From the NCBI GenBank assembly GCA_000245075.1, contig JH599972.1, positions 163,260-221,546 on the forward strand: a stretch of 58,287 nucleotides of DNA. Reading direction: 5' to 3'. Positions 1-58,287 of the stretch are shown here, piece after piece. Position numbers and translations under genes: made by a program. The notes beneath the pieces are model-generated. The model was not told the origin of the DNA, did not search any database, and saw only the letters and a list, made by a program, of their open reading frames with translations. This DNA is from Acetobacteraceae bacterium AT-5844. Its GTDB lineage: Bacteria > Pseudomonadota > Alphaproteobacteria > Acetobacterales > Acetobacteraceae. Position 1 is the first letter of the stretch. The number at the start of each line of letters is the position of its first letter.

Positions 1-1
1 G

Positions 2-11157: not shown

Positions 11158-12024
11158 TCAGGCGTGGCGGAACAGCCGGCGCAGCAGACCACGCTGCGTC
11201 GTTTCCGCGAGGGCGGAGAGGAAGCCGGCTCCCGCCATCTGCGGGGCGCGGCTGGTTTGGGGGATGCCGTGGCGGGTCTCCGCGAGAAAACGGCTGGCGG
11301 CGGTACGGTAGGCTCGGCCCACCTCGCTCTTCGTATCCAGGCTTGCCGGCCGGCCAGCATTGGAGGAGCGCAGCACCGTCTCGCTTTCCGGCACCACGGC
11401 CAGCAGCGGCATCACAAGAATGTCCTGGATGGTGGCGAGCGACATCATGTCGCCCCGCTTCGCCCGCTCCTCACTGTAGCGGGTGACGACGAGGTGCTCC
11501 CGCACCGGCGGCAGGCCGGACTGCGCGCGGCGGGAACGGGCGGCGATGTAGCCCATGATCCGGTCGGCATCGCGCACCGAGGTCATTTCGGGATTGCAAA
11601 CGACGATCGCATGGTCGGCGTGATGCAGGGCCATCATGGCGCCATGCTCGATGCCGGCAGGGCTGTCGCAAATGATGTAGTCGAACTCGGCGGAGAGGAG
11701 GTTCATCACATGATCGATGCCCTCCGGCGTCAGCGATTCCTTGTCTGCCGTCTGCGAGGTGGCCAGCAGGTACAGGTTCGGCACGCGCTTATCGCGGACC
11801 AGTGCCTGAGAAAGCCGCGCGGTGCCGTCCGCGACATGCAGGAAGTCGTAGACCACCCGCTTCTCGACGCCCATGACGAGATCGAGATTTCGCAAACCCA
11901 TATCGAAATCGACCACGCAGACGCGGTGGCCCTCCAGCGCCAGGGCGGCGCCGAAGGCGGCGGTCGTGGTGGTCTTGCCCACCCCTCCCTTGCCGGAGGT
12001 AACGGTGATGACGGTCGCGGACAT
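11158..12024 (-). CDS. minD: Septum site-determining ATPase MinD
   Basis: This 288-aa ParA/MinD-family ATPase binds the membrane as an ATP dimer and recruits MinC to block FtsZ rings away from midcell. The deviant Walker A SGKGGVGKTT lies at residues 10-19, the switch region is VVDFDMGLRNLDLVMG, and Walker B is IICDSPAG. The C-terminal RGLLRRLFRHA is a membrane-targeting amphipathic helix like that of E. coli MinD. The gene lies between minC (38 bp upstream) and minE (16 bp downstream). A TTTCGCA motif core at 11888-11894 falls in the conserved GLRNLD codons, with the AT-rich codons TTG, CGA and AAT. Confidence 0.96.
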   Translation of the reverse strand: MSATVITVTSGKGGVGKTTTTAAFGAALALEGHRVCVVDFDMGLRNLDLVMGVEKRVVYDFLHVADGTARLSQALVRDKRVPNLYLLATSQTADKESLTPEGIDHVMNLLSAEFDYIICDSPAGIEHGAMMALHHADHAIVVCNPEMTSVRDADRIMGYIAARSRRAQSGLPPVREHLVVTRYSEERAKRGDMMSLATIQDILVMPLLAVVPESETVLRSSNAGRPASLDTKSEVGRAYRTAASRFLAETRHGIPQTSRAPQMAGAGFLSALAETTQRGLLRRLFRHA

Positions 12025-12062
12025 CGGGATTCTCCCTGAGGTCTGTTACGTGCGGAAAGGAA

Positions 12063-12761
12063 TCAGGGCAGCGGGGCGAAGCGCAGTGCGCCGTCGGCCA
12101 GGCTGATCTGGATCGGGCTGTTCACCCAACTGGCGGGAAACTCGTCGGCGCCCAGGTACAACCCGGCAATCGCCACCATCTCTGCATCGAATATTTTCGC
12201 AAAGATGCGAGCAGCAGGATCGTCGCCCAGACCGGCGCTCGCCGATCCACGCAGCGCGCCATAGACATGGATGCACCCGTCGGCGAGCAATTGCGCGCCG
12301 GGGGAGACGGAGTGCAGAACAATGAGGTCGGCTTCCACGGCATAGACGCGCTGGCCGGATCGCACCGGCTCGCTGACGATCAGCGGCGGCCGGCGGATAC
12401 GCTCAGCGGCGAGGTTCTGACGCGGTTCAGGGTCGAGTACCCGGCCCAGCCCGTTTGCGAGGGCCGCCTGCTCCACCTCAATGGCCTGCGCCTTGAACGC
12501 AGCGGGCACAAGCCCGCGCTGGCGCAGCAAAGCGACGGCCTCTGCCACGCGTGAGGCGGAGGTCGCGGGCAGCGCGGTCAGGTCCAGGATAGCAGGAGTA
12601 TGCCGGAAGAGGCCTGCAGTGGCCGCCAGCCGGGCTGTCAGAGCCTTATCCAGTTCCTGGACCGCCACATCGGCGATCTCGACGGTAAGGAAGGGATGCA
12701 CCTTCCCGCGCAGCCGCAGCGGGCTTGAATCGGGCGCCGGATGCGGCGTGAAGGTCATCAT
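12063..12761 (-). CDS. minC: Septum site-determining protein MinC
   Basis: This 232-aa inhibitor of FtsZ assembly is the first gene of the min operon. Residues 1-110 form the N-terminal MinC domain (LRLRGKVHPFLTVEI, AILDLTAL). The C-terminal beta-helix starts near residue 125 (PVRSGQRVYAVEADLIVL) and contains the conserved HVYGALRGSASAGLGDD segment that binds MinD and FtsZ, ending with PASWVNSPIQISL. Two adjacent ATGs at the start are equivalent. A TTTTCGCA motif copy lies about 100 bp upstream and another falls within the gene (12195-12201), in a run using the rare-looking codons AAA and ATA. This suggests that min expression is linked to the motility region. Confidence 0.95.
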   Translation of the reverse strand: MMTFTPHPAPDSSPLRLRGKVHPFLTVEIADVAVQELDKALTARLAATAGLFRHTPAILDLTALPATSASRVAEAVALLRQRGLVPAAFKAQAIEVEQAALANGLGRVLDPEPRQNLAAERIRRPPLIVSEPVRSGQRVYAVEADLIVLHSVSPGAQLLADGCIHVYGALRGSASAGLGDDPAARIFAKIFDAEMVAIAGLYLGADEFPASWVNSPIQISLADGALRFAPLP

Positions 12762-12858
12762 GGACAGTTTCGCCTTCCGTCAGGGTTACCAGGGGCTGTC
12801 ATCGGCCTGCTCCGGCCTGCCGCTTTTCGCGCGCTACACCGGCATAATCTCGTCTTGG

Positions 12859-12890
12859 ATTTTTCGCAAGAGTTTTCGTTTTTCGCTCAA
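12859..12890 (+). promoter_or_regulatory. TTTTCGCA motif upstream of minC
   Basis: TTTCGCA at 12862-12868, preceded by AT, is followed 19 bp later by the related TTTCGCT at 12881. It lies in the 147-bp gap between minC and the upstream minus-strand operon. Confidence 0.6.
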
Positions 12891-12908
12891 TCGATGGCGT
12901 GCGGCACA

Positions 12909-13601
12909 TCAGGCGGCATTCAGGGCGAGATGAGGCCGGCTTGCCGTCGTCAGGCCATCCAGGTGCGCCACAGCCTCCGCCATCCACAGCCGGAACAGAG
13001 CCTGACCTTGCAGGAACGGTCCATCCAAAGCTGTCTGCGACACGGGTAAGCATTGGCCGGCCAGCTGTGACCGGGCCACCCGGCGCAATGCGGCGCGCTG
13101 GACAGGCTCGGCTTCTTCCGGATCCGGCAATCCTGCCGCACGGCGGAATGACGACAGGCTGCATCCGCTTCCCATGGCTGCCTCTGTGGGCAAGGCTCCA
13201 AGCGGACGGAGGCGATGTCCGTCCCAGGCCAATAGCCGCAGATCGTGCCGGTCGGCGCCCGCTGGAACGATGAAGCCCGGCACATCCCCGGGCTCCAGCG
13301 CCAAGAGCGTGCCCAACCAGTCGAGTCCCGATGCGAGCAACTCCGGACAGGGTGGCAGGCTGGCGGAGACCAACAGCCGTGCCGCTTCTTCCTCCCTGAC
13401 GATGCGAGAGCCGCTTGTGGCGTGATCGAGACTTTCCCCGACCAGCAACTCCGTCATGGCTGAATGCCGGAACAAGGGATGAGCAGGCAGGCTCCGAGGG
13501 CGGCGCCCCTTCAGTAATGCGACCAGCGCCTCCGCATCATCCCATGGCAACGGGTGGCGCAGTGGTGCATCGAGCTCCAGCCTGGCTTCCTTGCGGATCA
13601 T
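12909..13601 (-). CDS. Hypothetical protein, second gene of a two-gene operon
   Basis: This 230-aa soluble protein has no recognised family. It is rich in leucine, alanine and arginine, with no signal peptide or membrane segment. Notable parts are the N-terminal LPWDDAEALVALLKGRRPRS, a central GLDWLGTLLALEPGDVPGF stretch, and a C-terminal helical part ending LFRLWMAEAVAHLDGL. Its ATG overlaps the stop of the upstream gene by 4 nt, so both are translated from one message. The operon is divergent from another unknown gene across a TTTTTCGCATAA motif, which places it with the flagellar set. The role is unknown; the company suggests a motility or division function. Confidence 0.75.
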   Translation of the reverse strand: MIRKEARLELDAPLRHPLPWDDAEALVALLKGRRPRSLPAHPLFRHSAMTELLVGESLDHATSGSRIVREEEAARLLVSASLPPCPELLASGLDWLGTLLALEPGDVPGFIVPAGADRHDLRLLAWDGHRLRPLGALPTEAAMGSGCSLSSFRRAAGLPDPEEAEPVQRAALRRVARSQLAGQCLPVSQTALDGPFLQGQALFRLWMAEAVAHLDGLTTASRPHLALNAA

Positions 13602-13960
13602 ACGCTACCTGCCTGGCCGGCCAGGCGCTGCCGACGCTGCGCCGCGGACAGTGCGGCGTCCACTGCGATCGGATCGCCCGCCACCTTCTGCCGTCTCAAA
13701 GACAGGGGGGGCTCGTCGTGCGGATCGTCCTCGATCAGCACGGCCTCGATGGCACTGTCGGACTGTACGGCGGTAAGCAGACCTTCCTTATAGTGCACCA
13801 CCACCCGGGGCGGCGCATCCGCGAGGCGCAGCAGCGCATCCAGCGCGTCCAATGCCTGCTCGAACTCTTCCTGGCTGCTTTCAACCTGCACCAGATCCAG
13901 AATCTCGCGGCCTTCCAGGAGGAGACTCGCCTCTCCCGGCGCGCGTCGGCTGATCTCCAT
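13598..13960 (-). CDS. Hypothetical acidic protein, first gene of a two-gene operon
   Basis: This 120-aa protein starts at the ATG with AGGAGA 8 nt upstream; the frame is open to 14068, but that extension runs through the motif and non-coding-looking sequence. The middle part is acidic and helical (LDLVQVESSQEEFEQALDALDALL), followed by VVVHYKEGLLTAVQSDSA and a charged, proline-containing tail (EDDPHDEPPLSLRRQK). No domain was recognised. Its last 4 nt overlap the next gene. The TTTTTCGCATAA motif is 67 bp upstream. Confidence 0.75.
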   Translation of the reverse strand: MEISRRAPGEASLLLEGREILDLVQVESSQEEFEQALDALDALLRLADAPPRVVVHYKEGLLTAVQSDSAIEAVLIEDDPHDEPPLSLRRQKVAGDPIAVDAALSAAQRRQRLAGQAGSV

Positions 13961-14026
13961 CGGGCTTCTCCTGATTTGACTCCAACCGTCGCAGGAGGTG
14001 CCATGCCGCCGGGCCGCCTTCAACAG

Positions 14027-14040
14027 TTTTTCGCATAAAC
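14027..14040 (+). promoter_or_regulatory. TTTTTCGCATAA motif between divergent unknown genes
   Basis: TTTTTCGCATAAAC lies midway in the 147-bp gap between the minus-strand operon at 13960 and the plus-strand gene at 14108, so it could serve both. Confidence 0.65.
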
Positions 14041-14107
14041 ATGCTCGCGTTTTCGTGATTGACGTCACGCCTTACCGCCTGGATAAGGCGGAGAGACGGA
14101 GACCCGC

Positions 14108-15367
14108 ATGCCGCACAGCCTGCATCTGGACAGCCCGCTCGCTGGCGTCGCGGCCTATGACCTGACCACTGCCACAGGTCTTGCACTCTTGCGGCGCTTC
14201 GATGCGCAGTTCCATCGCCTGCCTCCGGCGGCGCGGGCCGACGCGGTACGGAGCCTGGCCTTGGTGTTGCCGCTTGCCTCCCGCGGCGAGGGGCTGCTGG
14301 TGCTTCCGGGCGGGGCGCTGGCTTGGCGGCAGGGCGAATCGGCCCTGGTGGCCGACTCTTCTTCCAGTGTCGGCGTCACGACGAGTGCGCCTGCCTTGCG
14401 CCGTGCGGCTGCCGTCCAATCGGGCACATTCTTCATCCATCATACGAAGAATGGCCTTCAAATGGGCCAGAAAGCGGTATTTCCGGCGCAATCTGTCACG
14501 CTGACACAGCGTGCCTCCCTTTACGCCGACATCTTGCCCGGCTTGGCCGGGTGGCGGGGGCCGGCCCTGATCCACTGGCACCAGCATGGCGCCGCAGTCT
14601 GGGAGATGGTCCCTGCCCCTCCGCCGCTGGCGCTCGCCGTCAGTCTCACGGGTGAGGTTTTGCAGCCGGGCTCGGCGCTGCCCCGCTTCCTCTGGGCGGC
14701 TGGAGGCGGTGAGGAGATCTACCAGCACCTTTCTTCCGGCCTCTCCGCCCATCTGGACGAGTGGCTCGCCTCTGAAATCAGCGATGCATTGCGATTCGCT
14801 CTGATCGCACACTGGACGGATGGCGAGGACAGCCTCGCCAGCCGACTGGCGGATGGCCTTGCCAGCTTGCCCAGCGCTTTCGCGGCCGATCCGTCGGCGC
14901 CTGCGGGGATGGAGACGCTGGCGGATTGGCCGGATGCCATGCCGATGCTGGGAGGGGACCGCTTCCTGCTCGGCCTATCCGCTGCTGAAGCCGGTGAGGC
15001 CTGGACTGGATCGCTGCCTCGCCAGGCGCTGGAAGTGTGGCGCGACCTTCTCCCCCCCGGCTCCGCGCTCATCTCCGAAAGGCGAGGCAGCGCCGTTGCT
15101 GCCCTGGATACGTTGGCCGCGGACCGGCTGGGGCGTGGCTCCGCCCGGAGTTTGGCGGTTCTCGCGCCTCTCGCCGCCGAGGTCCGGCCCGGGGATCTGC
15201 TCCATTTGGTGGAGCGGGTGGCGCTGCGGCTGGGCGCGCCAGTGCTGCTCGCCGTGCCGGCCTGGGGTCTCTTTCACCAACACGATCCGGAAGGCTTCCG
15301 CGCGGCGGGCAATGGCCCGGCCTTTGGGCTCGGAGCGGGCCTGGAGTGCTTCGAGCCGGCCGAGTAA
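14108..15367 (+). CDS. Hypothetical protein upstream of cheY
   Basis: This 419-aa protein has no recognised family and no signal peptide or membrane segment. It is Leu/Ala/Gly-rich with several tryptophans (PALIHWHQHGAAVWEMVP, LPRFLWAAGGGEEIYQHL). The end reads like a conserved fold (LLHLVERVALRLGAPVLLAVPAWGLFHQHDPE). It is preceded by a TTTTTCGCATAA motif and followed after 96 bp by cheY on the same strand, so it may belong to the chemotaxis-flagellar set. Its codons 87-93 contain an exact-looking iteron copy (14368-14387), 19 of 20 bases identical to the origin iteron. Start choice is supported by a purine-rich site (GGAGAGACGGAGACC) before the ATG. Confidence 0.75.
   Translation: MPHSLHLDSPLAGVAAYDLTTATGLALLRRFDAQFHRLPPAARADAVRSLALVLPLASRGEGLLVLPGGALAWRQGESALVADSSSSVGVTTSAPALRRAAAVQSGTFFIHHTKNGLQMGQKAVFPAQSVTLTQRASLYADILPGLAGWRGPALIHWHQHGAAVWEMVPAPPPLALAVSLTGEVLQPGSALPRFLWAAGGGEEIYQHLSSGLSAHLDEWLASEISDALRFALIAHWTDGEDSLASRLADGLASLPSAFAADPSAPAGMETLADWPDAMPMLGGDRFLLGLSAAEAGEAWTGSLPRQALEVWRDLLPPGSALISERRGSAVAALDTLAADRLGRGSARSLAVLAPLAAEVRPGDLLHLVERVALRLGAPVLLAVPAWGLFHQHDPEGFRAAGNGPAFGLGAGLECFEPAE
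14368..14387 (+). repeat. Remote iteron copy inside a coding gene
   Basis: TGTCGGCGTCACGACGAGTG matches the origin iteron at 19 of 20 positions, 4.8 kb from the array and in the same orientation. The match is far better than chance would give in a window this size. Confidence 0.7.
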
Positions 15368-15377
15368 ACGGATGGTA

Positions 15378-15420
15378 AATTTTCGCATGAGGCACAGGAA
15401 GCGCTTGCGAAAAAAAACGG
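15378..15420. promoter_or_regulatory. Inverted pair of TTTCGCA motifs before cheY
   Basis: AATTTTCGCATGAG and, 25 bp further, the reverse form CGCTTGCGAAAAAA flank a short spacer. The pair lies 44-86 bp upstream of the cheY start. Confidence 0.65.
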
Positions 15421-15463
15421 TATCGTGAATGGTGGCCTCGCCCGCATCAGAAGGGGAAGAGGC

Positions 15464-15826
15464 GTGAAGATTTTGGTGGTGGATGATTACCCGACGATGC
15501 GTCGGATCGTGCGAAATCTGCTGGATCAGATCGGCTTCAAGGATGTCGAGGAAGCTGGCAACGGCGCCGAGGCCCTCGAGAAGATCAAGGTCTCCCGCTA
15601 CGACATGGTGATTTCGGATTGGAACATGGAGCCCATGACCGGGCTCGAGCTCCTCAAGCATGTGCGCGCCGATGCCGCTCTGGCCAAGACACCGTTCATT
15701 ATGGTGACCGCCGAGAGCAAGACGGAAAACGTGGTTGCCGCCAAGCAGGCCGGAGCCTCGCAGTACATTGTGAAGCCGTTTACGGCTGAAACCTTGAAGG
15801 CGAAAATCGCCTCCGTCGTCGGCTGA
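15464..15826 (+). CDS. cheY: Chemotaxis response regulator CheY
   Basis: This 120-aa single-domain receiver protein binds FliM when phosphorylated and switches the flagellar motor. The acidic pocket D7-D8, phospho-acceptor D52 ([10 protein letters not shown]), T82 (MVTAES) and K104 (YIVKPF) are all present. The GTG at 15464 was chosen because AGGGGAAGAGG directly precedes it and the receiver domain begins there (VKILVVDD); a GTG 13 codons upstream would add a tail through the ribosome site. A motif copy at 15510-15516 falls in codons for IVRNLL, using CGA and AAT. cheZ follows after 11 bp. No CheA, CheW, CheR or CheB gene is in the window, so its kinase is encoded elsewhere. Confidence 0.96.
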
Positions 15827-15837
15827 GAGGGCTTGCG

Positions 15838-16470: not shown

Positions 16471-16520
16471 TACCAGCCGCCGCGCCACTCGCGGCGGCTA
16501 CTCAAGCCAGGAAGAATGTC

Positions 16521-18005: not shown

Positions 18006-18032
18006 TCTTCCCTTTTTTCAGGACTTTCCTCC

Positions 18033-18719: not shown

Positions 18720-18731
18720 CACGGAGCGCAA

Positions 18732-18763
18732 GGGGCCGCTGGAGCGCGGCCCCTGCCCTTTCT
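18732..18763. terminator. Intrinsic terminator after flgD
   Basis: GGGGCCGC, 6-nt loop, GCGGCCCC: a perfect 8-bp stem followed by TGCCCTTTCT. It separates flgD from the convergent FliL-like gene. Confidence 0.75.
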
Positions 18764-19187
18764 AGCTGTGAAGCAGACGCGTGATGACGACGTCCCGCAG
18801 CCCCTCTTCCCGCACCTGAGCCAGGCTGTCGTAAAGGCTGTCCCGCAACATGGACGGATCGGTCTGCCCTGGGCGGAGCTGATTCCGTTCCGACATGGCC
18901 ATCAGCTTTCGCAGCACGGCCTGCCGCAGCAATGGCGACACATCCTTGAAACCCTGCGTCTGCTCGCTCTGGGTCTCCAGCGTGACGGAGATGACGACAT
19001 AGGCCATGCGCCGGCCGGCACTTGGCAAGTTCACGGTGAAATCACCCAGGGGGACGAAGTCGAACTCTTTCTTGGCAGCTTCCGCCGCCCCGGCCTGCAT
19101 CGGCGCCAACGCCATGGCGCCTGCCGCCCCCAGGATGGCAAGCCCCATGCGGCTCAAGGAAGCACGGCGGGAGTAATGTGTCGGCAT
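18762..19187 (-). CDS. FliL-like protein with signal peptide
   Basis: This 141-aa protein resembles the periplasmic domain of FliL: DFVPLGDFTVNLPSAGRRMAYV, then VISVTLETQSE, LLRQAVLRKLMAM and LRDVVITRLL as the last strand. In place of the usual N-terminal membrane anchor it has a signal-peptide-like start with two arginines (YSRRASLSRMGLAILG) ending near AGAAEA, so it may be exported free into the periplasm, possibly by Tat. A true fliL is encoded at 51453. The start at 19187 has GGAG upstream; earlier codons look non-coding. A TTTCGCA core lies 31 bp upstream and another inside the gene. A stator- or basal-body-associated role is inferred. Confidence 0.75.
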   Translation of the reverse strand: MPTHYSRRASLSRMGLAILGAAGAMALAPMQAGAAEAAKKEFDFVPLGDFTVNLPSAGRRMAYVVISVTLETQSEQTQGFKDVSPLLRQAVLRKLMAMSERNQLRPGQTDPSMLRDSLYDSLAQVREEGLRDVVITRLLHS

Positions 19188-19215
19188 GGGCTCGCTCCGG
19201 TTCATCGCTGGGATG

Positions 19216-19226
19216 AATTTCGCAAT
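19216..19226 (+). promoter_or_regulatory. TTTCGCA motif upstream of the FliL-like gene
   Basis: AATTTCGCAATG lies about 30 bp before the start at 19187. The gap to flhB (19188-19281) contains nothing else recognised. Confidence 0.5.
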
Positions 19227-19281
19227 GCCGGGCCGTGTCGTCAATCGGGTTGTCTCATTTTTTGTGACGCATACACATATT

Positions 19282-21119: not shown

Positions 21120-21123
21120 CAAA

Positions 21124-24641: not shown

Positions 24642-24680
24642 TGTTTCGCATTCCGGATGTCGAGAGTTTTTCGCATAGAC
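24642..24680 (+). promoter_or_regulatory. Direct pair of TTTCGCA motifs between flgB and fliI
   Basis: TTTCGCA at 24644-24650 and TTTTTCGCATA around 24669-24675 are in direct orientation, 25 bp apart. They lie 42-80 bp upstream of the flgB operon and 100-140 bp before fliI. Confidence 0.7.
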
Positions 24681-30416: not shown

Positions 30417-30433
30417 ATTATTTTTCGCAAGCG
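30417..30433 (+). promoter_or_regulatory. TTTTTCGCA motif upstream of flagellin
   Basis: ATTATTTTTCGCAAGCG contains the core at 30423-30429, 117 bp before the flagellin start; a weaker TTTTTTCGCG follows at 30454. The 276-bp gap between the FlgN-like gene and flagellin contains no other feature I can support. Confidence 0.65.
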
Positions 30434-31297: not shown

Positions 31298-31315
31298 AAA
31301 TTTTCGCATAATAGG
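31298..31315 (+). promoter_or_regulatory. TTTTCGCATAA motif between flgJ-like and an unknown gene
   Basis: AAATTTTCGCATAATAGG has its core at 31302-31308, in the divergent gap between 31226 (minus) and 31409 (plus). Confidence 0.65.
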
Positions 31316-31408
31316 CTTCACAACCTGCCACCAGAATGGATGGCTCCCCGATCTCCAGAAGGAGCCACCCTTCCGCGCGAAACGCGTGGTGAGACAGGAC
31401 TGGCCGCC

Positions 31409-31885
31409 ATGGGCGACGTAATGGGCGAGATGTGGCAAGAAGCCTCGGAATATTTGGAGGATGCGGAACTCGCGCCGCACCGCCGCCGGCATCAGATCCG
31501 GCGCCGTGCCCTGGCGCCGGAGCTGCGCGGTGAATTCGACGCACGCCTTCTGGCGGGCGAGGATGTTCAGAGCCTTGCGCGAGCATTCAATATCGAGCCG
31601 TGGTACGCCCAGCGCCGTGCGAAGCGCGTGCTCAGCCGTGCCAGCCTCGACCGTCCGATGTCACCTTTTCTCTCTCCCCTGTCCGAGATGGATGAGGACA
31701 TGACCCCCCTGCAATATGCCTGCGGCCTGCTGGGTACGCGCGTGCGCCCGCTCCGCAACGGCTATTACGTCCTGGATGGCCGTGAGGCCGGCCCTAAGGA
31801 AGTAGCCCGGGCCGCGAACCGCCTTCTGCGGGAACGCGGCCAGAGCGAAATCCCCTATCCCGGGCTGAATCCGCTCCATCGCTGA
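31409..31885 (+). CDS. Hypothetical protein with HTH-like segment
   Basis: This 158-aa protein has no recognised family. The N-terminal half is basic and helical (LAPHRRRHQIRRRALAP); ARLLAGEDVQSLARAFNIEPWYAQRRAKRV reads like a helix-turn-helix with a positively charged recognition helix. The C-terminal half contains LLGTRVRPLRNGYYVLDGREAGPKEVARAANRLL, which could be a small alpha/beta domain. It could therefore be a DNA-binding regulator, and it stands directly beside a TTTTCGCATAA motif. An ATG at 31340 would add 23 residues. A strong hairpin follows the stop. The regulatory role is inference. Confidence 0.7.
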   Translation: MGDVMGEMWQEASEYLEDAELAPHRRRHQIRRRALAPELRGEFDARLLAGEDVQSLARAFNIEPWYAQRRAKRVLSRASLDRPMSPFLSPLSEMDEDMTPLQYACGLLGTRVRPLRNGYYVLDGREAGPKEVARAANRLLRERGQSEIPYPGLNPLHR

Positions 31886-32748: not shown

Positions 32749-32784
32749 AAATTTCGCATCTTCGTTGCAACAGTTTCGCATGAG
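32749..32784 (+). promoter_or_regulatory. Direct pair of TTTCGCA motifs upstream of bactofilin
   Basis: AAATTTCGCATC (core 32752-32758) and AGTTTCGCATGAG (core 32774-32780) repeat in direct orientation 22 bp apart, with GTTGCAAC between them. Confidence 0.68.
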
Positions 32785-33822: not shown

Positions 33823-34137
33823 TCAGGCGGCGGCGGTTTCGGCCGGCACCGGGGCCGGCGGACCATAGACAGCCGGGCCCGGCCAGGAAGTGCCGTGGCG
33901 CAGCAGCGGAGCGAATTCCTCAGGCAGGCGGGCCTCGATCGCGACGGCGGCGCTGTCGATCTCCACGCTGCCGCTGGCCTGCATGCGTGTCTCGAGCTCC
34001 ACGCTGCGGGCGGAAGGGTCGGCAAGACGGAGGGTCTCACGGACCTGCGCCAGGGCAGCGCCGCGCAGCGCTTCCAGCACTTCCGAACGGCTGAGGCGGA
34101 TGGTGTGGCTAACGAAGAAAGGCGAAGGACGGGTCAT
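33823..34137 (-). CDS. Hypothetical small protein
   Basis: This 104-aa protein begins with FFVSHTIRLSRSEVLEALRGAALAQVRET and contains SVELETRMQASGSVEIDSAAVAIEARLP, which suggests a compact alpha/beta fold. The end (LLRHGTSWPGPAVYGPPAPVPAETAAA) is proline-rich and probably disordered. No family was recognised. GGAGAAG lies before the ATG. Three TTTCGC-type motifs lie upstream in the 373-bp gap to the divergent ParB-like gene. It may form an operon with the 32834 gene. Confidence 0.7.
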   Translation of the reverse strand: MTRPSPFFVSHTIRLSRSEVLEALRGAALAQVRETLRLADPSARSVELETRMQASGSVEIDSAAVAIEARLPEEFAPLLRHGTSWPGPAVYGPPAPVPAETAAA

Positions 34138-34159: not shown

Positions 34160-34258
34160 CATATTTCGCGGAGCGGTCCGCGAGGTGTGGCCTGCCGAAA
34201 TTTTTGGCGGCACCGGTCTTCTAGCATCATTTCGCACAAGCTGCCATATTTCGCTTCG
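34160..34258 (+). promoter_or_regulatory. Three TTTCGC-type motifs between 34137 and the ParB-like gene
   Basis: CATATTTCGCGG (34160), CATCATTTCGCACAAG (core 34230-34236) and CATATTTCGCTTCG (34246) occur in direct orientation in the 34138-34510 gap. Only the middle one is a full core match. The rest of the gap has a T/A-rich stretch near 34390-34430 and a hairpin at 34472-34488. Confidence 0.5.
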
Positions 34259-34510: not shown

Positions 34511-36271
34511 ATGGCACGTGCGAAGGCGGCCGCCCTGCGGGCGGTTGGAGGTACGTCCGGCAAGGCCCAGCCTCTGCAGGCCGGCCGGATCATACAGATC
34601 CAGGGCGGTGATCCGGACGTGCCCGCCTTCTCCATCGAATTGGTGACGCCGGACAGCGCGACGGAGCTGCTGCAACGCAAGCGCCCCAGCGCGGCCGAGA
34701 ACCCGGCCGCCATCAATGCCTATGCGGAGGCGATGCGCGAGGGGCGTTGGATTCTGAACGGCATGCCCATCATCCTCTCACGGGCAGGCGTGTTGCTGGA
34801 TGGCGTGCAGCGCCTGCGTGCTTGCGTGAAGGCGGGCGTACCTTTCCTGACAGTGCTGGCGCAGAACATTCCTGACGATGTGCTGCACACGATTGATCAG
34901 CAGCGTCGTCGTTCCTTCGCGGGCGTTCTTGAAACGCGCGGCATTCCGCACGCCCACGCCTTGCAGTCGGCGCTGGTCAAGCTGATCCGCTATGATGACG
35001 GCAAGATGCTGCGGGGGGCGGGTACGGCCTCCTGGTCCCGCATGGACCGGGTGCTGCGCGCCAATCCTGATCTCGTGGCGGCGGTGAAGATGTCGCTGGA
35101 AAGCGAGGCCAGCGTCCTGTCGGAAGCGGTGCGCACGCCGCTGTTGTTCATGGGCTTTCAGGTGGATGAGGCGGCAACGCGCCGGTTCCTCGATGCCATC
35201 GCGAATCCCGAGAAATACACACCGATGGAGCCAGGCGCCCGTGTGCGTGACCTGATCGATATCACGCGCGGCGATCCGACGACCCGGCTGAAGCCGGTGA
35301 CGCTCTTCGCCGTCTGTATCAAGGCGCTGAACGCCACCTTCAGTCGCGAGCATCTGCGCAGCTATGCCTGGTTGGACAAGACGGTAAACCCGACGAAGGG
35401 CGAGGATTTTCCTGCCCTCGGCGGCTACAAGGGCCTGAACGACCCTGGCCATGCCGACGAACGCGAGGAAACCGCGCACCAGTTGCGCGAGGCAGTCGCT
35501 CGCCTGGCCTCCGAGGAAGGGGTCTATCCGCTCGCCATCGAGACGGTGACGCCGGAGATCGCAGTAGAGTACCTCGCGCACAATACCCGCAACCGCAAGA
35601 TCGTGGCCGCCCATGTGGACTCGATCGCCCGCGACATTAAGGCGGGCAACTGGATGATGAACGCGCAGCCCATCTGCTTCGCGCGCGATGGGCGGTTGCT
35701 CAATGGTCAGCATCGGCTTTCCGCCGTGTTGCAGGCAGGCGAGGCCATCGAGGTGCCGGTGATGCGCGGGTTGCCGGAGGAGGCTTATGCCACCTACGAC
35801 ATCCACGCCAAGAAGGGGCCGCAGCTCGGCGCTGCCTATGATAATTTCGGGGACAAGCCCCTGGTGGCGGCAGCCGCGGTGCTGCTGTGGAAGCGCGAGC
35901 TCAAGCCCAGCGGCGTGCGTAATGCCAAGCCGACGCCGTCGGAGGTAATGAAGATCATCGAGCAGCACCCGCGCCTGCTGGAACTGCGGACCTTCGGGCG
36001 GAAGATGATCGAGTTCGGCCGTGGCTCCGTTCTGACCTACGCAGCCTATTGCATTGAGCGCGATGATCCGGAGCTGGGACGCGTTTTTCTGGAACGGTTC
36101 GAAACAGGTGCGGACCTGCCACGCGGGCATCTTATTCTGGAGCTCCGCAAGCGCATGCAGATCATGCGGCGGGAACGCACCAGCCAGGACGAACAGCTTA
36201 AGGAATTGCTGGCGGCCTGGGAACGCTTCAAGGAAAAGCCTGATCTGGACCGGTTGAAGCGCGCCTCCTGA
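34511..36271 (+). CDS. ParB-like protein with two tandem ParB/sulfiredoxin-type domains
   Basis: This 586-aa protein contains an internal duplication about 301 residues apart. Copy 1 (around residues 42-145) has IELVTPDSATELL, EGRWILNGMPIILSRAGVLLDG and then GVQRLRA (98-104). Copy 2 (around 343-445) has IETVTPEIAVEYL, AGNWMMNAQPICFARDGRLLNG and GQHRLSA (399-405). The GQHR motif fits the ParB/sulfiredoxin superfamily nucleotide-binding motif; copy 1 has lost the histidine. Helical segments follow each copy. It may bind DNA or be a nucleotide-dependent scaffold. It is single, beside fliJ, preceded by TTTCGC motifs and a hairpin. No partner parA exists in the window. The DNA-binding role is inference. 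Confidence 0.72.
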   Translation: MARAKAAALRAVGGTSGKAQPLQAGRIIQIQGGDPDVPAFSIELVTPDSATELLQRKRPSAAENPAAINAYAEAMREGRWILNGMPIILSRAGVLLDGVQRLRACVKAGVPFLTVLAQNIPDDVLHTIDQQRRRSFAGVLETRGIPHAHALQSALVKLIRYDDGKMLRGAGTASWSRMDRVLRANPDLVAAVKMSLESEASVLSEAVRTPLLFMGFQVDEAATRRFLDAIANPEKYTPMEPGARVRDLIDITRGDPTTRLKPVTLFAVCIKALNATFSREHLRSYAWLDKTVNPTKGEDFPALGGYKGLNDPGHADEREETAHQLREAVARLASEEGVYPLAIETVTPEIAVEYLAHNTRNRKIVAAHVDSIARDIKAGNWMMNAQPICFARDGRLLNGQHRLSAVLQAGEAIEVPVMRGLPEEAYATYDIHAKKGPQLGAAYDNFGDKPLVAAAAVLLWKRELKPSGVRNAKPTPSEVMKIIEQHPRLLELRTFGRKMIEFGRGSVLTYAAYCIERDDPELGRVFLERFETGADLPRGHLILELRKRMQIMRRERTSQDEQLKELLAAWERFKEKPDLDRLKRAS

Positions 36272-36274: not shown

Positions 36275-36685
36275 TCAGCGCCAATGCTGGCGGCGCAGTT
36301 CGGCGTCTTCCGCCATCTGTTCCGCCTTGCGGCGGGCGATTTTAAGGGCCGCGCGCTCCGCCGTCTCCAACGCAATCTCGAGGCGTTTGATCTCGGCAAA
36401 ATTCTCCCGCAGCGAGTCGCGTAGCTTGTCCTCCTGCCGTTGCAGGAGGTTGATGGCCAGCTCCAGCTGTTGCTTCTGCCGCGTGTGGATGCGCGACCAC
36501 TCCGTCCATAATGCCATTTCAGCAGCCTGCCCCCGGGCCCGGTCGGTCTCTCGCGTGGCGGCCGCGTCATGCATCGCGAGTTCCTCCCGCGCCAGCAGGG
36601 TTTGACGCTCGGCTTCGGCGAGTGCGGTCCGCTGTTCATCGGCCCGGCGGCGCGCGAGTCGGATCAGGGTTGGCAGGCCGCGCAT
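36275..36685 (-). CDS. fliJ: Flagellar export protein FliJ
   Basis: This 136-aa coiled-coil protein is of the FliJ type, the stalk of the FliI-FliH export ATPase. It has the pattern LPTLIRLARRRADEQRTALAEAERQ, LLAREELAMHD, then ALWTEWSRIHTRQKQQLELAINLLQRQEDKLRDSL and AAERAAL-like helices near the end. Start 36685 was chosen because GAGGA lies 5 nt upstream; ATG 36697 would add four residues. The frame is open much further, but that is not coding. A TTTTTCGCATA motif lies 55 bp upstream, shared with the divergent protease gene. fliI is 11 kb away. Confidence 0.82.
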   Translation of the reverse strand: MRGLPTLIRLARRRADEQRTALAEAERQTLLAREELAMHDAAATRETDRARGQAAEMALWTEWSRIHTRQKQQLELAINLLQRQEDKLRDSLRENFAEIKRLEIALETAERAALKIARRKAEQMAEDAELRRQHWR

Positions 36686-36738: not shown

Positions 36739-36753
36739 GTTTTTCGCATAGAA
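36739..36753 (+). promoter_or_regulatory. TTTTTCGCATA motif between fliJ and the serine protease
   Basis: GTTTTTCGCATAGAAG has its core at 36742-36748. It lies 8 bp before the protease start at 36761 and 54 bp upstream of fliJ. Confidence 0.65.
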
Positions 36754-36760: not shown

Positions 36761-37585
36761 ATGCGGATGCGGCGATGGATGCGGGGCCTGTTGGTTGTGG
36801 GCGCGGCGGTAACAGGGCTGGGGGCCGCTGCCTCCGCCTGGCCTTCCCGCCCTGTGCGGCTCGCGGCCGAACAGGGTGTCTCCGGTTCCGCTTTTGCCGT
36901 GGCCCCGGGGGTCCTGGTTACCAATGCTCATGTGGCGCTGCGATGCCAGATGCATGGCCTGCCTTTGAAAATCGTCGGTCGCGGCGGGGCGTGGCGTGTC
37001 GCGATATTGGATGCCGAGGCTGACCTCGCCTTGCTGCGTGGCCCGGCGGAGGACGAGGCCGTTCTTCCTATCTCTGCCGCCGCCCGTTTGCCGCGGGGAA
37101 CTCAGGTGATCGCCATGGGATATCCCACGCAGGGGGTGGAAGGCCGCATGGCGGGCCAGTTGCGCGCGAGCCGCGGCGGCGTGCTTCGTGCGACCCTGAC
37201 GGTTCATGACCCCCAGGGTGGCCGGGCGGTCAGCTTTGTCATGACCGACCGTGCTGGCCGGGAGGTCGAACCGGCCTGGGATGATGGCGTGCGTTATTTC
37301 GGCGCGGATCGCGCGCGGGCTTTGCGCTGGCGGCTGGAGATTGACGCGCCCTCTTCGGGCGGCAGCTCCGGCGGACCCGTGCTGGACGCGGCCGGCCATG
37401 TCGTGGGTGTTGTCTATGCGGGGGGGCGCGGACTGACGGCAGCCATTCCGCTGGAGGATGTGCGGGACCTCTTGGCCCGGGCAGGAATCGCTCCCGTGCT
37501 GCGGATGCCGGCCCAGAGGCGAAGCCCGGACTGGGCGGCCGTTGAAGCGGCCGCTGCCAGGGCAATGTACCGCGTGACCTGCTGA
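36761..37585 (+). CDS. Secreted trypsin-like serine protease
   Basis: This 274-aa protease has an N-terminal signal sequence (RRWMRGLLVVGAAVTGLGAAASAW) and a chymotrypsin fold. The triad is H57 (VTNAHV), D88 (AEADLALL) and S203 (GGSSGGPVLD). There is no PDZ domain, so it is not DegP-like in full. It would act in the periplasm or outside. It sits divergent from fliJ, 8 bp after a TTTTTCGCATA motif, which suggests expression with the flagellar set; a role in basal-body processing or quality control is a guess. The next gene is convergent with no gap. Confidence 0.85.
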   Translation: MRMRRWMRGLLVVGAAVTGLGAAASAWPSRPVRLAAEQGVSGSAFAVAPGVLVTNAHVALRCQMHGLPLKIVGRGGAWRVAILDAEADLALLRGPAEDEAVLPISAAARLPRGTQVIAMGYPTQGVEGRMAGQLRASRGGVLRATLTVHDPQGGRAVSFVMTDRAGREVEPAWDDGVRYFGADRARALRWRLEIDAPSSGGSSGGPVLDAAGHVVGVVYAGGRGLTAAIPLEDVRDLLARAGIAPVLRMPAQRRSPDWAAVEAAAARAMYRVTC

Positions 37586-43254: not shown

Positions 43255-43270
43255 GCATTTCGCATAGTGG
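43255..43270 (+). promoter_or_regulatory. TTTCGCATA motif upstream of flgK
   Basis: GCATTTCGCATAGTGG has its core at 43258-43264, in the flgE-flgK gap, 38 bp before the flgK start. Confidence 0.65.
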
Positions 43271-45870: not shown

Positions 45871-45899
45871 ATTATAGCGGAGGATTTTCGCATTCAAGT
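45871..45899 (-). promoter_or_regulatory. TTTTCGCAT motif and TATAAT box upstream of motB
   Basis: Read towards motB, AATGCGAAAAT (core 45886-45892) is followed 11 bp later by TATAAT (complement of 45871-45876), a perfect -10-like hexamer 35 bp before the ATG. The motif overlaps the stop end of the upstream FliK-like gene. Confidence 0.55.
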
Positions 45900-48710: not shown

Positions 48711-48736
48711 TCTGCCTGCTCTCCGCTGGTTCGTTG

Positions 48737-51314: not shown

Positions 51315-51342
51315 CGATACCTGTCGTCCCGTTCTGGCCGTC

Positions 51343-51386
51343 GATATTTCGCATAAGCGTTTTTGGCGTGGAATGCGAAAGCGCAT
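51343..51386. promoter_or_regulatory. Inverted pair of TTTCGCAT motifs between fliF and fliL
   Basis: TATTTCGCATAAGCG (core 51347-51353) and the reversed AATGCGAAAGCG (core 51374-51380) face each other 27 bp apart in the divergent 138-bp gap. A further GCGAAAAAT at 51419 is a partial match. Confidence 0.68.
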
Positions 51387-51452
51387 CGGGTTATATCTGC
51401 CCCCGCTTCTCTTGTCGCGCGAAAAATCGCTCTTGCCGGGAGTTCCCCCGCC

Positions 51453-51968: not shown

Positions 51969-51972
51969 CGGT

Positions 51973-53025: not shown

Positions 53026-53035
53026 GGAGAACCCC

Positions 53036-53617: not shown

Positions 53618-53636
53618 ATTCAAGGAGATCGCGATC

Positions 53637-54323: not shown

Positions 54324-54330
54324 AGACAAA

Positions 54331-54363
54331 CCCGGCGGCTGGAAGGCCGCCGGGGACGTTTTC
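54331..54363. terminator. Intrinsic terminator after the motE-like gene
   Basis: CCCGGCGGC, 6-nt loop, GCCGCCGGG: a perfect 9-bp stem followed by GGACGTTTTCAG. It separates the motE-like gene from the convergent 54362 gene. Confidence 0.8.
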
Positions 54364-55021
54364 AGTAATGGGCCGTGCGAACCGCGCGGCTCTTGCAGAG
54401 CAGCATCTCCGCATGCTCGGCGGCCACCGCCACGTCGCCTTGGCCGGTGCGCAGCGCGTAGCCGCCTTCGGCCAAGGCCGTCAGGCGGTGTTCCCCCGCT
54501 GAGGAAAAACCCGCGACAGGAAAAGAGAGATCGCAGTCGAGCGGGGAGGATTCGCCAGCTGCGGCCATTCCGGCCGCCAGGCGCCGCGCCAGGGACAGCA
54601 CGGCGTCGAGCGACTGTGCGACGGCGAGAGGGGCGGGCGCGATGGCATCTTGCTGGCGTGCCAGGCTGAGCTGCCAGGACAGTTCTACGCTGCTGTCCCG
54701 ATGGATGTGGATCTGCCAGCCATCCCGCTGCGCCTTCCAGCGGCCGTAACCATCCTCATGAAAGCCCAGGGCAGAATCAGCGGCTGAGCCGGTCGGGACA
54801 GGCAGGCTGATGCTGAGGCGCAGATCGCGCAGCCGACGGGCGATTTTCCGCTCTCGCCGCATGCGGAGCCAGCACGCGAGCCCTGCGGCGGCGACGGAGA
54901 CGGAAGCGAGAGGGCCCGGCAGCAACTCAGGCATGGTGGTCAGGACGAGCCCGGCGCTGGCAAGGCTCAGCAGTGCCGTCGAGGGAGGAAGGTTGGGGCC
55001 GTATTGGCGCCAGTTCTGCAT
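54362..55021 (-). CDS. Hypothetical membrane protein
   Basis: This 219-aa protein has two N-terminal hydrophobic segments (STALLSLASAGLVLTTM and LASVSVAAAGLACWL), a basic turn (RMRRERKIARRLRDL) and a cytoplasmic domain with beta-like segments (SISLPVPTGSAADSA, GRWKAQRDGWQIHIHRDSSVELSWQLSL). No family was recognised. It is divergent from 55170 across a palindromic motif pair, suggesting that both are part of the flagellar set. The start at 55021 is preceded by GGAGCACGCCC. Confidence 0.68.
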   Translation of the reverse strand: MQNWRQYGPNLPPSTALLSLASAGLVLTTMPELLPGPLASVSVAAAGLACWLRMRRERKIARRLRDLRLSISLPVPTGSAADSALGFHEDGYGRWKAQRDGWQIHIHRDSSVELSWQLSLARQQDAIAPAPLAVAQSLDAVLSLARRLAAGMAAAGESSPLDCDLSFPVAGFSSAGEHRLTALAEGGYALRTGQGDVAVAAEHAEMLLCKSRAVRTAHY

Positions 55022-55071
55022 GGGCGTGCTCCGGCAGATGATCTTTCATCCCCAGCATCGGAGACATATGG

Positions 55072-55113
55072 AAAAATTTCGCAAATCCCGGCGCGCGAAT
55101 TTGCGAAAAATAT
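55072..55113. promoter_or_regulatory. Palindromic TTTCGCA pair
   Basis: AAAAATTTCGCAAAT (core 55077-55083) and the reversed ATTTGCGAAAAAT (core 55102-55108) form an imperfect palindrome, 25 bp apart, in the divergent gap. It is the most symmetrical copy in the window. Confidence 0.72.
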
Positions 55114-55169
55114 TGACCTCCGGTGTGCGAATTGCGAGGAAGGGGCCGCACCCATCATGAGGCTCTCCC

Positions 55170-55472
55170 ATGTCCGTCCAGTCCGCCGTTTCTGATTCCA
55201 ATGCGTGGGGAGAAGCCGCCATGGCCAAGGCGGCTGCTCTTGGCCGCCGGGACGGCCTTCTGGGCCGGCCGCGCGATTTCACTCTGGCCGAGGTTGAAGG
55301 CGCGCTCACGGTCGTCGAGACAGAACAGCAGGCGCCGATCGGCCGGCCGCTCCTGGCCTCGCAGAGCCGCCTGCTGTTGGCGGCGGTGAAGCAATGCTAC
55401 GTCGCCGGCTACCATCATGGTGGCGATGTGCGGCGGGAGCAGCAGCGGCGTCGCGCCGCCACCCCCGCCTGA
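55170..55472 (+). CDS. Hypothetical small protein
   Basis: This 100-aa protein has a Gly/Ala-rich, soluble sequence: NAWGEAAMAKAAALGRRDGLLGRPRDFTL, then VEGALTVVETEQQ and SRLLLAAVKQCYVAGYHHGGDVRREQQRRR. No membrane segment or known domain was seen. It starts 57 bp after the palindromic motif and is convergent with the transglycosylase gene 3 bp away. GAGG lies 9 nt before the ATG. The role is unknown. Confidence 0.62.
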   Translation: MSVQSAVSDSNAWGEAAMAKAAALGRRDGLLGRPRDFTLAEVEGALTVVETEQQAPIGRPLLASQSRLLLAAVKQCYVAGYHHGGDVRREQQRRRAATPA

Positions 55473-55475
55473 GCG

Positions 55476-56480: not shown

Positions 56481-56495
56481 GGGAACTCCGATGTG

Positions 56496-56538
56496 GTTAT
56501 GCGAAAAATGTTTGTAGCAGGGAGACATGCGAAATGAT
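56496..56538 (-). promoter_or_regulatory. Two TTTCGCAT motifs between the transglycosylase gene and motA
   Basis: Read on the plus strand these are TTATGCGAAAAATG (core 56500-56506) and ACATGCGAAATGAT (core 56528-56534), direct repeats 28 bp apart. They lie 16-55 bp from the transglycosylase start and 62-104 bp before motA. Confidence 0.68.
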
Positions 56539-56599
56539 ATGAGAGAGTGCATCGGCCCCATGGGACCGAACGCACCGCCACAGTCAGGGCCCCTCATCG

Positions 56600-57496
56600 A
56601 TGATTCAGATCGCCGGCATTGTCGGAGTCTTCGTCGCCATCTTTGGCGGATACCTCCTCGCAGGCGGCCATTTGGCCGTGATCCTTCATTCCGTAGGGCC
56701 GGAGATGATCATCATCGGCGGCTCCGGCGTGATGACGATGTTGATTTCCTGCGACGGCGCGGGTGTGGCGAAGGTGCTGAAGTCGCTGGGCAAGGTTTTC
56801 AAAGGCCCTCGCTGGCGGCGTACCGATTACAGCGATCTGCTGAGCCTGCTCTACCTGCTGCTGCGTACCCACCAGAAGGAGGGTGCCGCGAAGCTGGAGA
56901 AGCACATCGAAAAGCCTGATGCCTCCCCGATTTTCTCCCGCTATCCGCGAATCGCCCAGGATGTCGCTGTGAGCGGGCTGGTTTGCGACACCATGCGCAC
57001 CATCACGCTCAACAATAAGGACCCGCACCTGGTGGGCGAGATGATGGAAGCCACCATCGAGAAGCGGTCGGCGGAGGAGATGAAACCCGCCAAGGTCCTG
57101 CAGACGGTTGCGGATGCTTTCCCCGCGCTCGGTATCGTCGCCGCGGTGCTCGGCATCATCAAGGCGCTGGGCGCCATTTCCGAAAGCCCTGAGGTTCTGG
57201 GCCGCATGATCGGCTCGGCGCTGGTCGGAACCTTCCTCGGCGTCTTCCTGTCCTATGGTCTTGTTGGTCCGATGGCATCGCGGCTGAAGGGCATCTTCGA
57301 GGAAGAGCGCCGGATGCTGGACGTCGCCCGCGCGGTCATTACGAGCTACCTGCAGAATCTCTCGCCGCAGATTTGCGTCGAGGTGGGCCGGCAGTCCGTG
57401 CCGACGAAGCTGCAGCCGAGCTTTGACGAGATGGAAGAGCAGCTGCGGGAAGCCGGCCGTGTGCGTTCCGACGGCGCCGAGGGTGGCGGGGAGTAA
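56600..57496 (+). CDS. motA: Flagellar motor stator protein MotA
   Basis: This 298-aa stator subunit has four membrane segments: GIVGVFVAIFGGYLLAGG, the next starting VGPEMIIIGGSGVMTML, and a pair in ADAFPALGIVAAVLGIIKALG and GSALVGTFLGVFLSYGLVGPMA. The cytoplasmic loop between them carries charged residues that meet FliG (KRSAEEMKPAKVLQ). The ATG at 56600 follows a gap with two motifs. Its stop shares one base with the next ATG (TAATG). Its partner motB is in another operon. Confidence 0.97.
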   Translation: MIQIAGIVGVFVAIFGGYLLAGGHLAVILHSVGPEMIIIGGSGVMTMLISCDGAGVAKVLKSLGKVFKGPRWRRTDYSDLLSLLYLLLRTHQKEGAAKLEKHIEKPDASPIFSRYPRIAQDVAVSGLVCDTMRTITLNNKDPHLVGEMMEATIEKRSAEEMKPAKVLQTVADAFPALGIVAAVLGIIKALGAISESPEVLGRMIGSALVGTFLGVFLSYGLVGPMASRLKGIFEEERRMLDVARAVITSYLQNLSPQICVEVGRQSVPTKLQPSFDEMEEQLREAGRVRSDGAEGGGE

Positions 57497-58287
57497 TGCC
57501 GGTGCGTCGTCCCTTCTTGCTGGCGGGCGTGGCTTTGCTGCCGCTACTTGGCCAGGCCGCGGCAGCGCAGGAGCCGCCTACCGGCTCGGGCCCCGTGCGG
57601 GTGCGGACAGGCCAGCACACCGACCGTGGGCGTATCGTCCTGCATCTGGGCAATGTGCCGCCCTATGCTGTGCGAAAAGTAAGTGGGGGGTTTGAGCTGC
57701 GCCTGCGAGGCCAGTACCCGCTCGACCTCTCCACCATTCGTCGGCTGAACGAACTCGCCGGCATCGAAGGCCGCCAGGAAGGTGGCGAGACGGTTGTGCT
57801 GCTCCGCACGGAGGGTGAGCAGAACGCTGAGGCCGGTGCTTTCGACGGCATGCTCTATGTCGATTTACGCCCGGCCGGGGCTGCCCGCAGCGCGACAGCG
57901 CTTGAGGCGGCACAGCGTCGACTGCTGGACGATGCGGTGCGTCTTGGCCTGATGAAACCTGAGCAGGCGGCTGCAATGTTGCAGGCAGCCCGCCCCGGCT
58001 CTTCCCCGGCGGAGCCGGCGTCTCCACCCCCGGCCGAACCGGCGCGCGTTGCCGCGGCGGCGCCCGTGACGGTGCCTGCCCCTGCTTCTCCCTCTGCGCC
58101 ACCGCAACAGGTGGCAACCCCCTCCCCTGCTCCGGAAGCGCGACTTTCAATGCCGGACGATCTGGCGGCCCTGAGAGAGGCCGTCATCGCCAAGTTGGCC
58201 GTGCTGAACGGTATACAGTCCCCACCCTCTTCCGGCCCGCAGCCTGCTATGGCTTCACCGCAGCCGCAGCCGCAGCCGCAGCCGCAG
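57496..58287 (+). CDS. AMIN-like exported protein after motA (5' part)
   Basis: The gene starts at an ATG overlapping the motA stop and is open to the window end (264 codons). A signal peptide (PFLLAGVALLPLLGQAAAAQ) is followed by a beta-rich domain (VRVRTGQHTDRGRIVLHLGNVP, GGFELRLRGQYPLDLST, GMLYVDLRP) that resembles AMIN-type domains of alphaproteobacterial envelope proteins. From residue 170 it is Pro/Ala-rich and ends in a PQ repeat at the edge. In related clusters such proteins continue with tetratricopeptide repeats; this cannot be seen here. A motif core at 57671 lies in VRKVS codons with CGA, AAA, GTA and AGT. Translational coupling to motA suggests a stator-linked role. Confidence 0.7.
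   Translation, partial: MPVRRPFLLAGVALLPLLGQAAAAQEPPTGSGPVRVRTGQHTDRGRIVLHLGNVPPYAVRKVSGGFELRLRGQYPLDLSTIRRLNELAGIEGRQEGGETVVLLRTEGEQNAEAGAFDGMLYVDLRPAGAARSATALEAAQRRLLDDAVRLGLMKPEQAAAMLQAARPGSSPAEPASPPPAEPARVAAAAPVTVPAPASPSAPPQQVATPSPAPEARLSMPDDLAALREAVIAKLAVLNGIQSPPSSGPQPAMASPQPQPQPQPQ

Follow-up and report, generated by a model that had tools for sequence, protein, structure and literature searches.

An oriented DNA box recurring across a flagellar/min cluster of Acetobacteraceae, and a tandem ParB-fold protein as its candidate reader

The flagellar/min cluster

Flagellar genes are a textbook case of hierarchical regulation, exerted by a small number of known regulators. The stretch of DNA analyzed here, referred to as the window, comprises 58,287 nucleotides of Acetobacteraceae bacterium AT-5844 and corresponds to positions 163260-221546 of contig JH599972.1 (C63 in our numbering, of which 241,546 of 244,277 bases were read). 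It carries a flagellar/min cluster in which a short DNA word, TGCGAAA (TTTCGCA on the opposite strand; hereafter the 7-mer), recurs as the core of an asymmetric box before most transcription units, together with a gene for a tandem ParB-fold protein that is the leading candidate to bind it.

11158..58287, no single strand: flagellar/min cluster bearing the boxes, continuing past the window with flgF, flgG, flgA and flgH

According to Pfam matches and orthologues, the cluster comprises minD-minC, cheY-cheZ, fliK-flgD, two fliL genes, flhB-fliR-flhA-fliQ-fliE-flgC-flgB and fliI; a gene for a DUF1217 protein, flbT, flaF, flagellin genes, a bactofilin gene, flgI, flgL, flgK, flgE and motB; and fliG, fliP, fliN, fliH, fliF, fliM, motE, a transglycosylase gene and motA. 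FliE, FliH, FliN, FlaF, FlgJ-like and MotE are among the names assigned by position and likeness, and the fliJ-like open reading frame (ORF) at 36275-36685, which has no Pfam match, is named by its position and its annotated or predicted counterparts. Synteny of the cluster extends to other genus members, which bear the name Pseudoroseomonas or Roseomonas.

Enrichment of the box in the cluster

An exact count on both strands gave 37 matches to the 7-mer in the window, the first starting at 11888 and the last ending at 57677, and none in positions 1-11000, bearing out the excess described in the original prediction (36 copies between 11.9 and 57.7 kb, none in 1-10.9 kb). The chance expectation of about 3 given there is too low, since dinucleotide-preserving shuffles of the window (n = 100) yield a mean of 7.25 (standard deviation 2.66, maximum 14), although the excess still stands; the density outside the window (205 copies in about 5.13 Mb) corresponds to about 2.3 copies. 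In all 157 contigs of the genome (5,190,553 bases) the 7-mer occurs 242 times and its reversed control word 307 times, while the window, which makes up 1.1% of the genome, holds 15% of the copies; the word is thus not generally frequent. C63 outside the window is at background (10 copies in 183 kb), and the possibility raised earlier that other regions carry the word equally densely is not borne out. The word TTTTCGCAT occurs 7 times in the window and 15 times in the genome, with 9 occurrences of its control word.

By the gene models used here, 20 of the 37 copies are intergenic and 17 coding, some of the coding assignments hanging on uncertain start codons (24765 in fliI, 51374 in fliL). Intergenic DNA accounts for 4,287 of the 47,130 bases of the cluster (9.1%), which gives a binomial P of 5e-12 for the intergenic share; the earlier figure of at least 22 intergenic copies was therefore slightly high, and the enrichment that it expressed holds. 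Among 420 permutations of the letters of the 7-mer, the mean count in cluster intergenic DNA is 0.42; TGCGAAA reaches 20, followed by ATGCGAA, an overlapping word, with 14.

Shape, orientation and conservation of the box

The motif is an asymmetric box of approximately TWTGCGAAAAAT, mostly reading toward the gene it precedes. The consensus derived from 165 sense-oriented sites, with 16 promoters weighted equally, is approximately T-T-W-TGCGAAA-A-A-T, followed 12-14 bases on by a weak T-Y-R tail; the sites were preselected for TGCGAAA, so that variation in the core is invisible. In most transcription units the box is found some 20-140 bp ahead of the first gene. In co-directional gaps TGCGAAA reads toward the gene at eight sites and the other way at two, one of which (36742) reads toward the fliJ-like ORF on the other strand, leaving only 15381, the second cheY box. 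Divergent gaps often hold one box per gene (51347/51374; 55077/55102), and the palindrome predicted at 55072-55113 proved to be such an inverted pair, between two divergent genes.

Upstream regions of 54 window genes were compared with those of orthologues in up to 13 relatives; coverage of the cluster was only partial in G009 (22,126 N in 80 kb) and in G010, G011 and G015 (short contigs). The sites in the window and their conservation are as follows, the strand being that which reads TGCGAAA.

12862..12868, minus: box before minC (8/8 genomes and 2/2 more distant)
14029..14035, minus: box between 13598-13960 (minus) and 14108-15367 (plus) (7/8 genomes)
15406..15412, plus: box before cheY (sense copy in 8/8 genomes; cheY in 2/2 more distant)
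15381, opposite to 15406: second cheY box (3/8 genomes)
19218..19224, minus: box before the first fliL, 18762-19187 (6/8 genomes)
24644..24675, minus: two boxes (24644, 24669) in the flgB/fliI gap, toward the flgB operon (flgB 9/9 genomes and 4/4 more distant)
30423..30429, minus: box before the flagellin gene fliC (8/9 genomes, one in the other orientation)
31302..31308, minus: box between the flgJ-like gene (minus) and a helix-turn-helix (HTH) gene (plus) (flgJ-like 8/9 genomes)
32752..32780, minus: tandem boxes (32752, 32774), 22 bp apart, before the bactofilin gene (at least one box in 10/10 genomes)
34230..34236, minus: box upstream of 33823-34137 (7/10 genomes; position and orientation variable)
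36742..36748, minus: box between the fliJ-like ORF (minus) and a trypsin-like gene, 36761-37585 (plus) (10/10 genomes)
43258..43264, minus: box before flgK (8/11 genomes)
45886..45892, minus: box before motB (12/12 genomes and 4/4 more distant)
51347..51353, minus: box before fliF (copy in 10/14 genomes; sense-oriented at -38 to -41 in fewer)
51374..51380, plus: box at the start of the fliL-fliM operon (copy in 12/12 genomes; orientation and distance variable)
55077..55108, no single strand: inverted boxes (55077, 55102) between divergent 54362-55021 and 55170-55472 (copy in 6/6 and 11/11 genomes)
56500..56534, plus: two boxes (56500, 56528) before motA (12/12 genomes, 27-28 bp apart; 3/3 more distant)

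Orthologous promoters thus share the box in Belnapia, Paracraurococcus, Rhodovastum and Pseudoroseomonas, the last of which has it both on plasmids and on a 3.8 Mb contig, contrary to the outcome that would have counted against the original prediction, namely a lack of conservation upstream of orthologues. In alignments the box stands out as a conserved island amid diverged DNA. Operon-internal genes provide an internal control for the association with promoters, since they have no upstream box (fliR and flhA 0/9; fliP, fliN, fliG and flgE 0/12; fliM 0/14). The bactofilin promoter of a distant cluster (G237) has no box. A further copy inside cheY (window position 15510, +46) is kept in 8/8 genomes, within a strongly conserved coding stretch.

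The presence of one directional box before most transcription units would also be expected if an alternative sigma factor recognized the box as part of its promoters. That reading was rejected, and we hold it to be exceedingly doubtful. No partner element was seen at constant spacing from the box, the best position outside it reaching 0.45 bits, and this argues against recognition by a sigma factor; the distance to conserved TA-type elements differs among the promoters, and at some of them boxes occur in pairs spaced 22-28 bp.

Confinement to the cluster

In nine cluster-bearing genomes, 104 of the 117 copies of the extended word WTGCGAAAAA lie on the contig of the cluster (cluster contig/total: G000 9/11, G001 12/15, G002 11/12, G003 13/13, G004 14/15, G005 10/12, G007 12/13, G012 12/13, G014 11/13). 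Two genus members without the window type of fliF have 0 and 2 copies. In G007 the cluster is chromosomal and keeps the motif, with 12 copies within 826,720-875,844 of a 3.78 Mb contig (G007:C1). The other type of flagellar cluster, which is chromosomal and has a 38-43% identical fliF, contains the 7-mer 0, 2, 1 and 5 times and no WTGCGAAAAA in G014, G016, G019 and G021 (stretches of 39-60 kb each), and a 41 kb plasmid-borne flagellar cluster of Azospirillum contains neither word. Two flagellar systems coexist in G009, G010, G011 and G014, with the window type accompanied by a 42-43% identical fliF elsewhere.

The motif is accordingly a cluster-specific regulatory element and not a replicon signal, since orthologous promoters share the box and most copies lie on the cluster contig. 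A replicon-specific binding site, the alternative offered in the original prediction, was rejected because the rest of C63 is at background and the chromosomal cluster of G007 keeps the motif. The replication gene next to the cluster is likewise free of boxes.

9669..10637, plus: RPA-type replication initiator beside the cluster (no upstream boxes, 0/6 genomes)

A site for DNA organization or segregation, resembling parS and associated with the cluster's genes for MinD, bactofilin and the ParB-like protein, would account for the presence of a ParB-like protein, a MinD-type ATPase and a bactofilin in one cluster; the structural matches of the tandem ParB-fold protein described below include PadC, itself ParB-like. 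We consider this reading very improbable: the position and orientation of the box relative to start codons are those of promoter elements, and the box is not palindromic, unlike the parS sites of canonical ParABS systems. The only ParA/MinD-type gene recognized is minD (11158-12024), beside minC and 22 kb from the ParB-like gene, which does not lie in a canonical parAB operon.

Known flagellar regulators

Full consensus sites of CtrA (TTAA-N7-TTAA) and sigma-54 (TGGCAC-N5-TTGC) are absent from the cluster, a looser form of the latter occurring three times; the sigma-28 promoter TAAA-N15-GCCGATAA has no full site in the cluster, where GCCGATAA alone occurs twice, although no search for a fliA gene in the genome was made. 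These regulators were therefore rejected as explanations of the box, in agreement with the original prediction that it matches none of their sites. The CtrA-controlled fla2 system of Rhodobacter sphaeroides, as described in the available text of PMC6180460, resembles the window in having sites of one regulator before flagellar operons and divergent fliF/fliL and flgB/fliI gaps; its CtrA boxes are TTAA-N6/7-TTAA, and the N7 form is the one absent here. Judged from its listings, the literature search, in a library lacking most subscription papers, recognized no paper on the motif or on flagellar control in these genera; a short DNA word is also poorly searchable.

The earlier statement that the window encodes no recognized flagellar master regulator holds by Pfam, and is qualified by two candidates encoded in the cluster and not mentioned there, the ParB-fold protein and an HTH protein. 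The suggestion of an operator for an undescribed regulator is supported, the box being an operator-like element dedicated to the flagellar/min region. That it is a regulatory element is near certain.

34511..36271, plus: tandem ParB-fold protein of 586 amino acids, leading candidate box binder (fold evidence, co-occurrence, paralogue loci)
31340..31885, plus: helix-turn-helix protein (HTH181), second candidate; true start probably 31409 or near

Regulators encoded elsewhere were also considered. Pfam recognized no OmpR-type (Rem/FtcR) regulator among the scanned window proteins; OmpR-type genes are present in two related clusters (L215, L217), in the Azospirillum cluster, and elsewhere in 12/12 genomes searched. 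The L215 response regulator was rejected as the reader, having no ortholog above 38% identity in 12 genomes. A 378-amino-acid HTH-domain protein encoded beyond the window (annotated in R. marmotae) was considered too; it is present in six fetched cluster contigs, cut or split in some, and missing from others.

The tandem ParB-fold protein

The protein encoded at 34511-36271 is 54-94% identical among 12 aligned sequences, and modest but consistent evidence assigns it two repeats with a predicted ParB N-terminal (CTPase/Srx) fold. ParB carries a nucleotide-binding motif of the GxxRxxA type, GERRxRA. Each repeat of the ParB-like protein has an invariant G-V-Q-R-L-x-A or G-Q-H-R-L-S-A. After each repeat, where ParB-type proteins have an HTH DNA-binding domain, a low-confidence model shows helical segments. 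The gene occurs in clusters with HTH181 and in clusters without it (Rhodovastum, Rhodopila, four loci in metagenome-assembled genomes, MAGs), and is absent from five flagellar clusters that lack the motif; in G010, G011 and G015, whose contigs are short, it was not seen. In R. marmotae the fliJ-like and ParB-like genes are separated by an annotated htpG (L230:35114-36946), which was not seen at that place in the window. A contig (L218) of a MAG labeled Hyphomicrobiales carries an Acetobacteraceae-type cluster with boxes, reflecting either transfer or mis-binning.

The second candidate, HTH181, could be the reader with the ParB-like protein as a passenger. It is predicted to contain a tri-helical HTH with strongly conserved residues, is found by profile search at E < 1e-60 in 15/28 genomes, including every Pseudoroseomonas genome with a complete cluster region, and has a box in the flgJ-like/HTH gap in 6/7 genomes. 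Rhodovastum (G173, nine contigs, 100% complete) nevertheless lacks it (best E 0.045) while keeping boxes before minC, cheY, flgB, motB, fliF and motA, slightly different in form (TTTGCGAAAT instead of ATGCGAAAAA), which makes HTH181 the less likely reader. Five more flagellar loci (Rhodopila and MAGs) show the 7-mer at 1.7-6 times expectation with no HTH181 in the stretch fetched, and it is not found in non-flagellar loci with boxes; we therefore regard this alternative as unlikely. HTH181 matches no Pfam or NCBIfam family at threshold, has a conserved C-terminal alpha/beta domain, gave no Foldseek match with E below 1.4, and is restricted to this cluster type in the searched genomes.

ParB-like paralogues outside flagellar clusters

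One scan yielded 29 ParB-like loci, and in a family search 15/299 genomes had one. The 13 non-flagellar loci (64 kb) contain WTGCGAAAAA five times, in five loci, as compared with a mean of 0.08 and a runner-up of 3 for 1,512 letter permutations, in a test devised after three of the five sites were known. Two more cases of a box with a ParB-like gene, G002:C177 and G016:C62, come from a genome-wide list that predates the ParB-like search. The box is oriented toward the ParB-like gene in seven loci, lying roughly 60-80 bp away in L250, 0.4-0.7 kb in L194, L265, L220 and L224, and 1.1-1.7 kb in L219 and L221; L194 and L265 are orthologous and thus not independent cases. Since the box-bearing non-flagellar loci, polysaccharide loci among them, are spread over deep branches of the ParB-like tree, the pairing of box and ParB-like gene seems older than its flagellar role.

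A recurring module in L194, L219, L220, L221 and L224 consists of an XRE-type regulator, a box and a tandem ParB-like gene, and it adjoins polysaccharide/exosortase-type genes in the last four of these. In Dankookia the stretch that separates the ParB-like gene from a sugar-transferase gene holds a perfect inverted repeat, TTTCGCATATGCGAAA (L219:9042-9057), the sole such repeat seen.

This neighborhood is also what favors a regulator encoded elsewhere, such as a response regulator or an XRE protein, as the reader, with the ParB-like gene as one of its targets. The OmpR-type response regulators of L215 and L217 and the 22 bp repeat spacing at the bactofilin promoter also count in its favor. The XRE neighbor was rejected, because a close XRE protein (at least 53% identity) is missing from the box-bearing G003, G005, G012, G014, G173 and G323 (16 genomes searched), which have only distant ones (34-41%), as does G008, which is without WTGCGAAAAA. 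The lack of orthologs of the L215 regulator tells against this reading as well, and sites outside the cluster are few, with no shared target seen in the nine genomes among the 12 sites inspected out of 13 (G014:C4:2054271 and G016:C11:87566 were left out). We give this alternative a small but appreciable probability.

Several observations weigh against the tandem ParB-fold protein as the reader. It has no Pfam match even at E 10 and no sequence match in the PDB, and its model is weak (predicted local distance difference test, pLDDT, 60; predicted template modeling score, pTM, 0.42), so that any DNA-binding domain in it is putative. No sense-oriented box lies within 260 bp of the gene in the window, and the protein could be a member of the regulon and not its regulator. 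Among the 13 non-flagellar loci, eight lack WTGCGAAAAA and the 7-mer alone is unexceptional, 25 of 420 permuted words being as frequent; another predicted gene stands between box and ParB-like gene in L219 and L221, and the G016 contig is only 3.3 kb long. WTGCGAAAAA occurs at least once in 276/299 family genomes, in some far above control, and by itself is thus not diagnostic outside the genera of the cluster. One family genome (G090) has 95 copies of ATGCGAAAAA (control 1), in two runs at steps of 103-104 bp (e.g., C240:7053-7374, C46:46294-46407), which probably represent an unrelated repeat family.

A proposed circuit and its parallels

On balance, we favor the view that the box serves as cis element in a transcription circuit dedicated to the flagellar/min/bactofilin cluster and spanning the whole locus, and that it is read by the tandem ParB-fold protein, which would switch the adjacent promoters. 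That this protein, and not another, reads the box is somewhat more probable than not. The analysis establishes how the box is enriched, placed, oriented, conserved and confined, and that it co-occurs with the ParB-like gene; binding, use of a nucleotide and the direction of control are inferences. Its two ParB-like repeats in one chain could bind an asymmetric site in the way two half-proteins bind a palindrome. The protein would load at each of the boxes, perhaps nucleotide-bound in the manner of ParB, VirB and KorB, and act on the neighboring promoter; since the boxes are directional, switching on is likelier than switching off. Their orientation and position would suit an activator more than a silencer.

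The nearest working parallels to such control are VirB and KorB, which, according to the available text of PMC10770331 and PMC11790492, show that clamps of the ParB type are able to govern transcription when they act from sites upstream. VirB of Shigella is ParB-related and not a classical transcription factor, acting at specific sites (virS) upstream of plasmid-borne promoters (PMC10770331); the parallel is mechanistic only. VirB has one ParB-type chain and works by relieving silencing by H-NS, whereas the protein considered here is a tandem of two ParB-like repeats with no known silencer, and its boxes lie at most transcription units of a flagellar cluster. KorB of plasmid RK2, as presented in PMC11790492, represses from a 16 bp OB site together with KorA, whereas the boxes here are about 10-12 bp, asymmetric and oriented. 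A survey of the ParB-CTPase fold (PMC12704722), in the text available, describes many orphan ParB-fold proteins and fusions and provides a home for the fold; the terms "flagell", "tandem" and "Acetobacter" have no match in its main text.

Here a whole flagellar cluster has its own directional element in several genera, on plasmid or chromosome, and no known flagellar regulator is assigned to it. A broader possibility, to which we give slightly less than even weight, is that a DNA clamp of the tandem-ParB type, loaded at oriented promoter boxes, governs an entire flagellar system. This would be a self-contained, portable regulon that moves between plasmid and chromosome together with a regulator of its own, which replaces the usual master regulators; the pairing of protein and box would predate their association with flagella, given their joint presence in polysaccharide loci on deep branches of the ParB-like tree. 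If the tandem ParB protein reads the box, a DNA-segregation fold would have been turned into a flagellar master regulator, in parallel to VirB, and duplication within one chain would explain the asymmetry of the site. Because gene and box also occur together in polysaccharide loci, the idea can be tested beyond flagella too.

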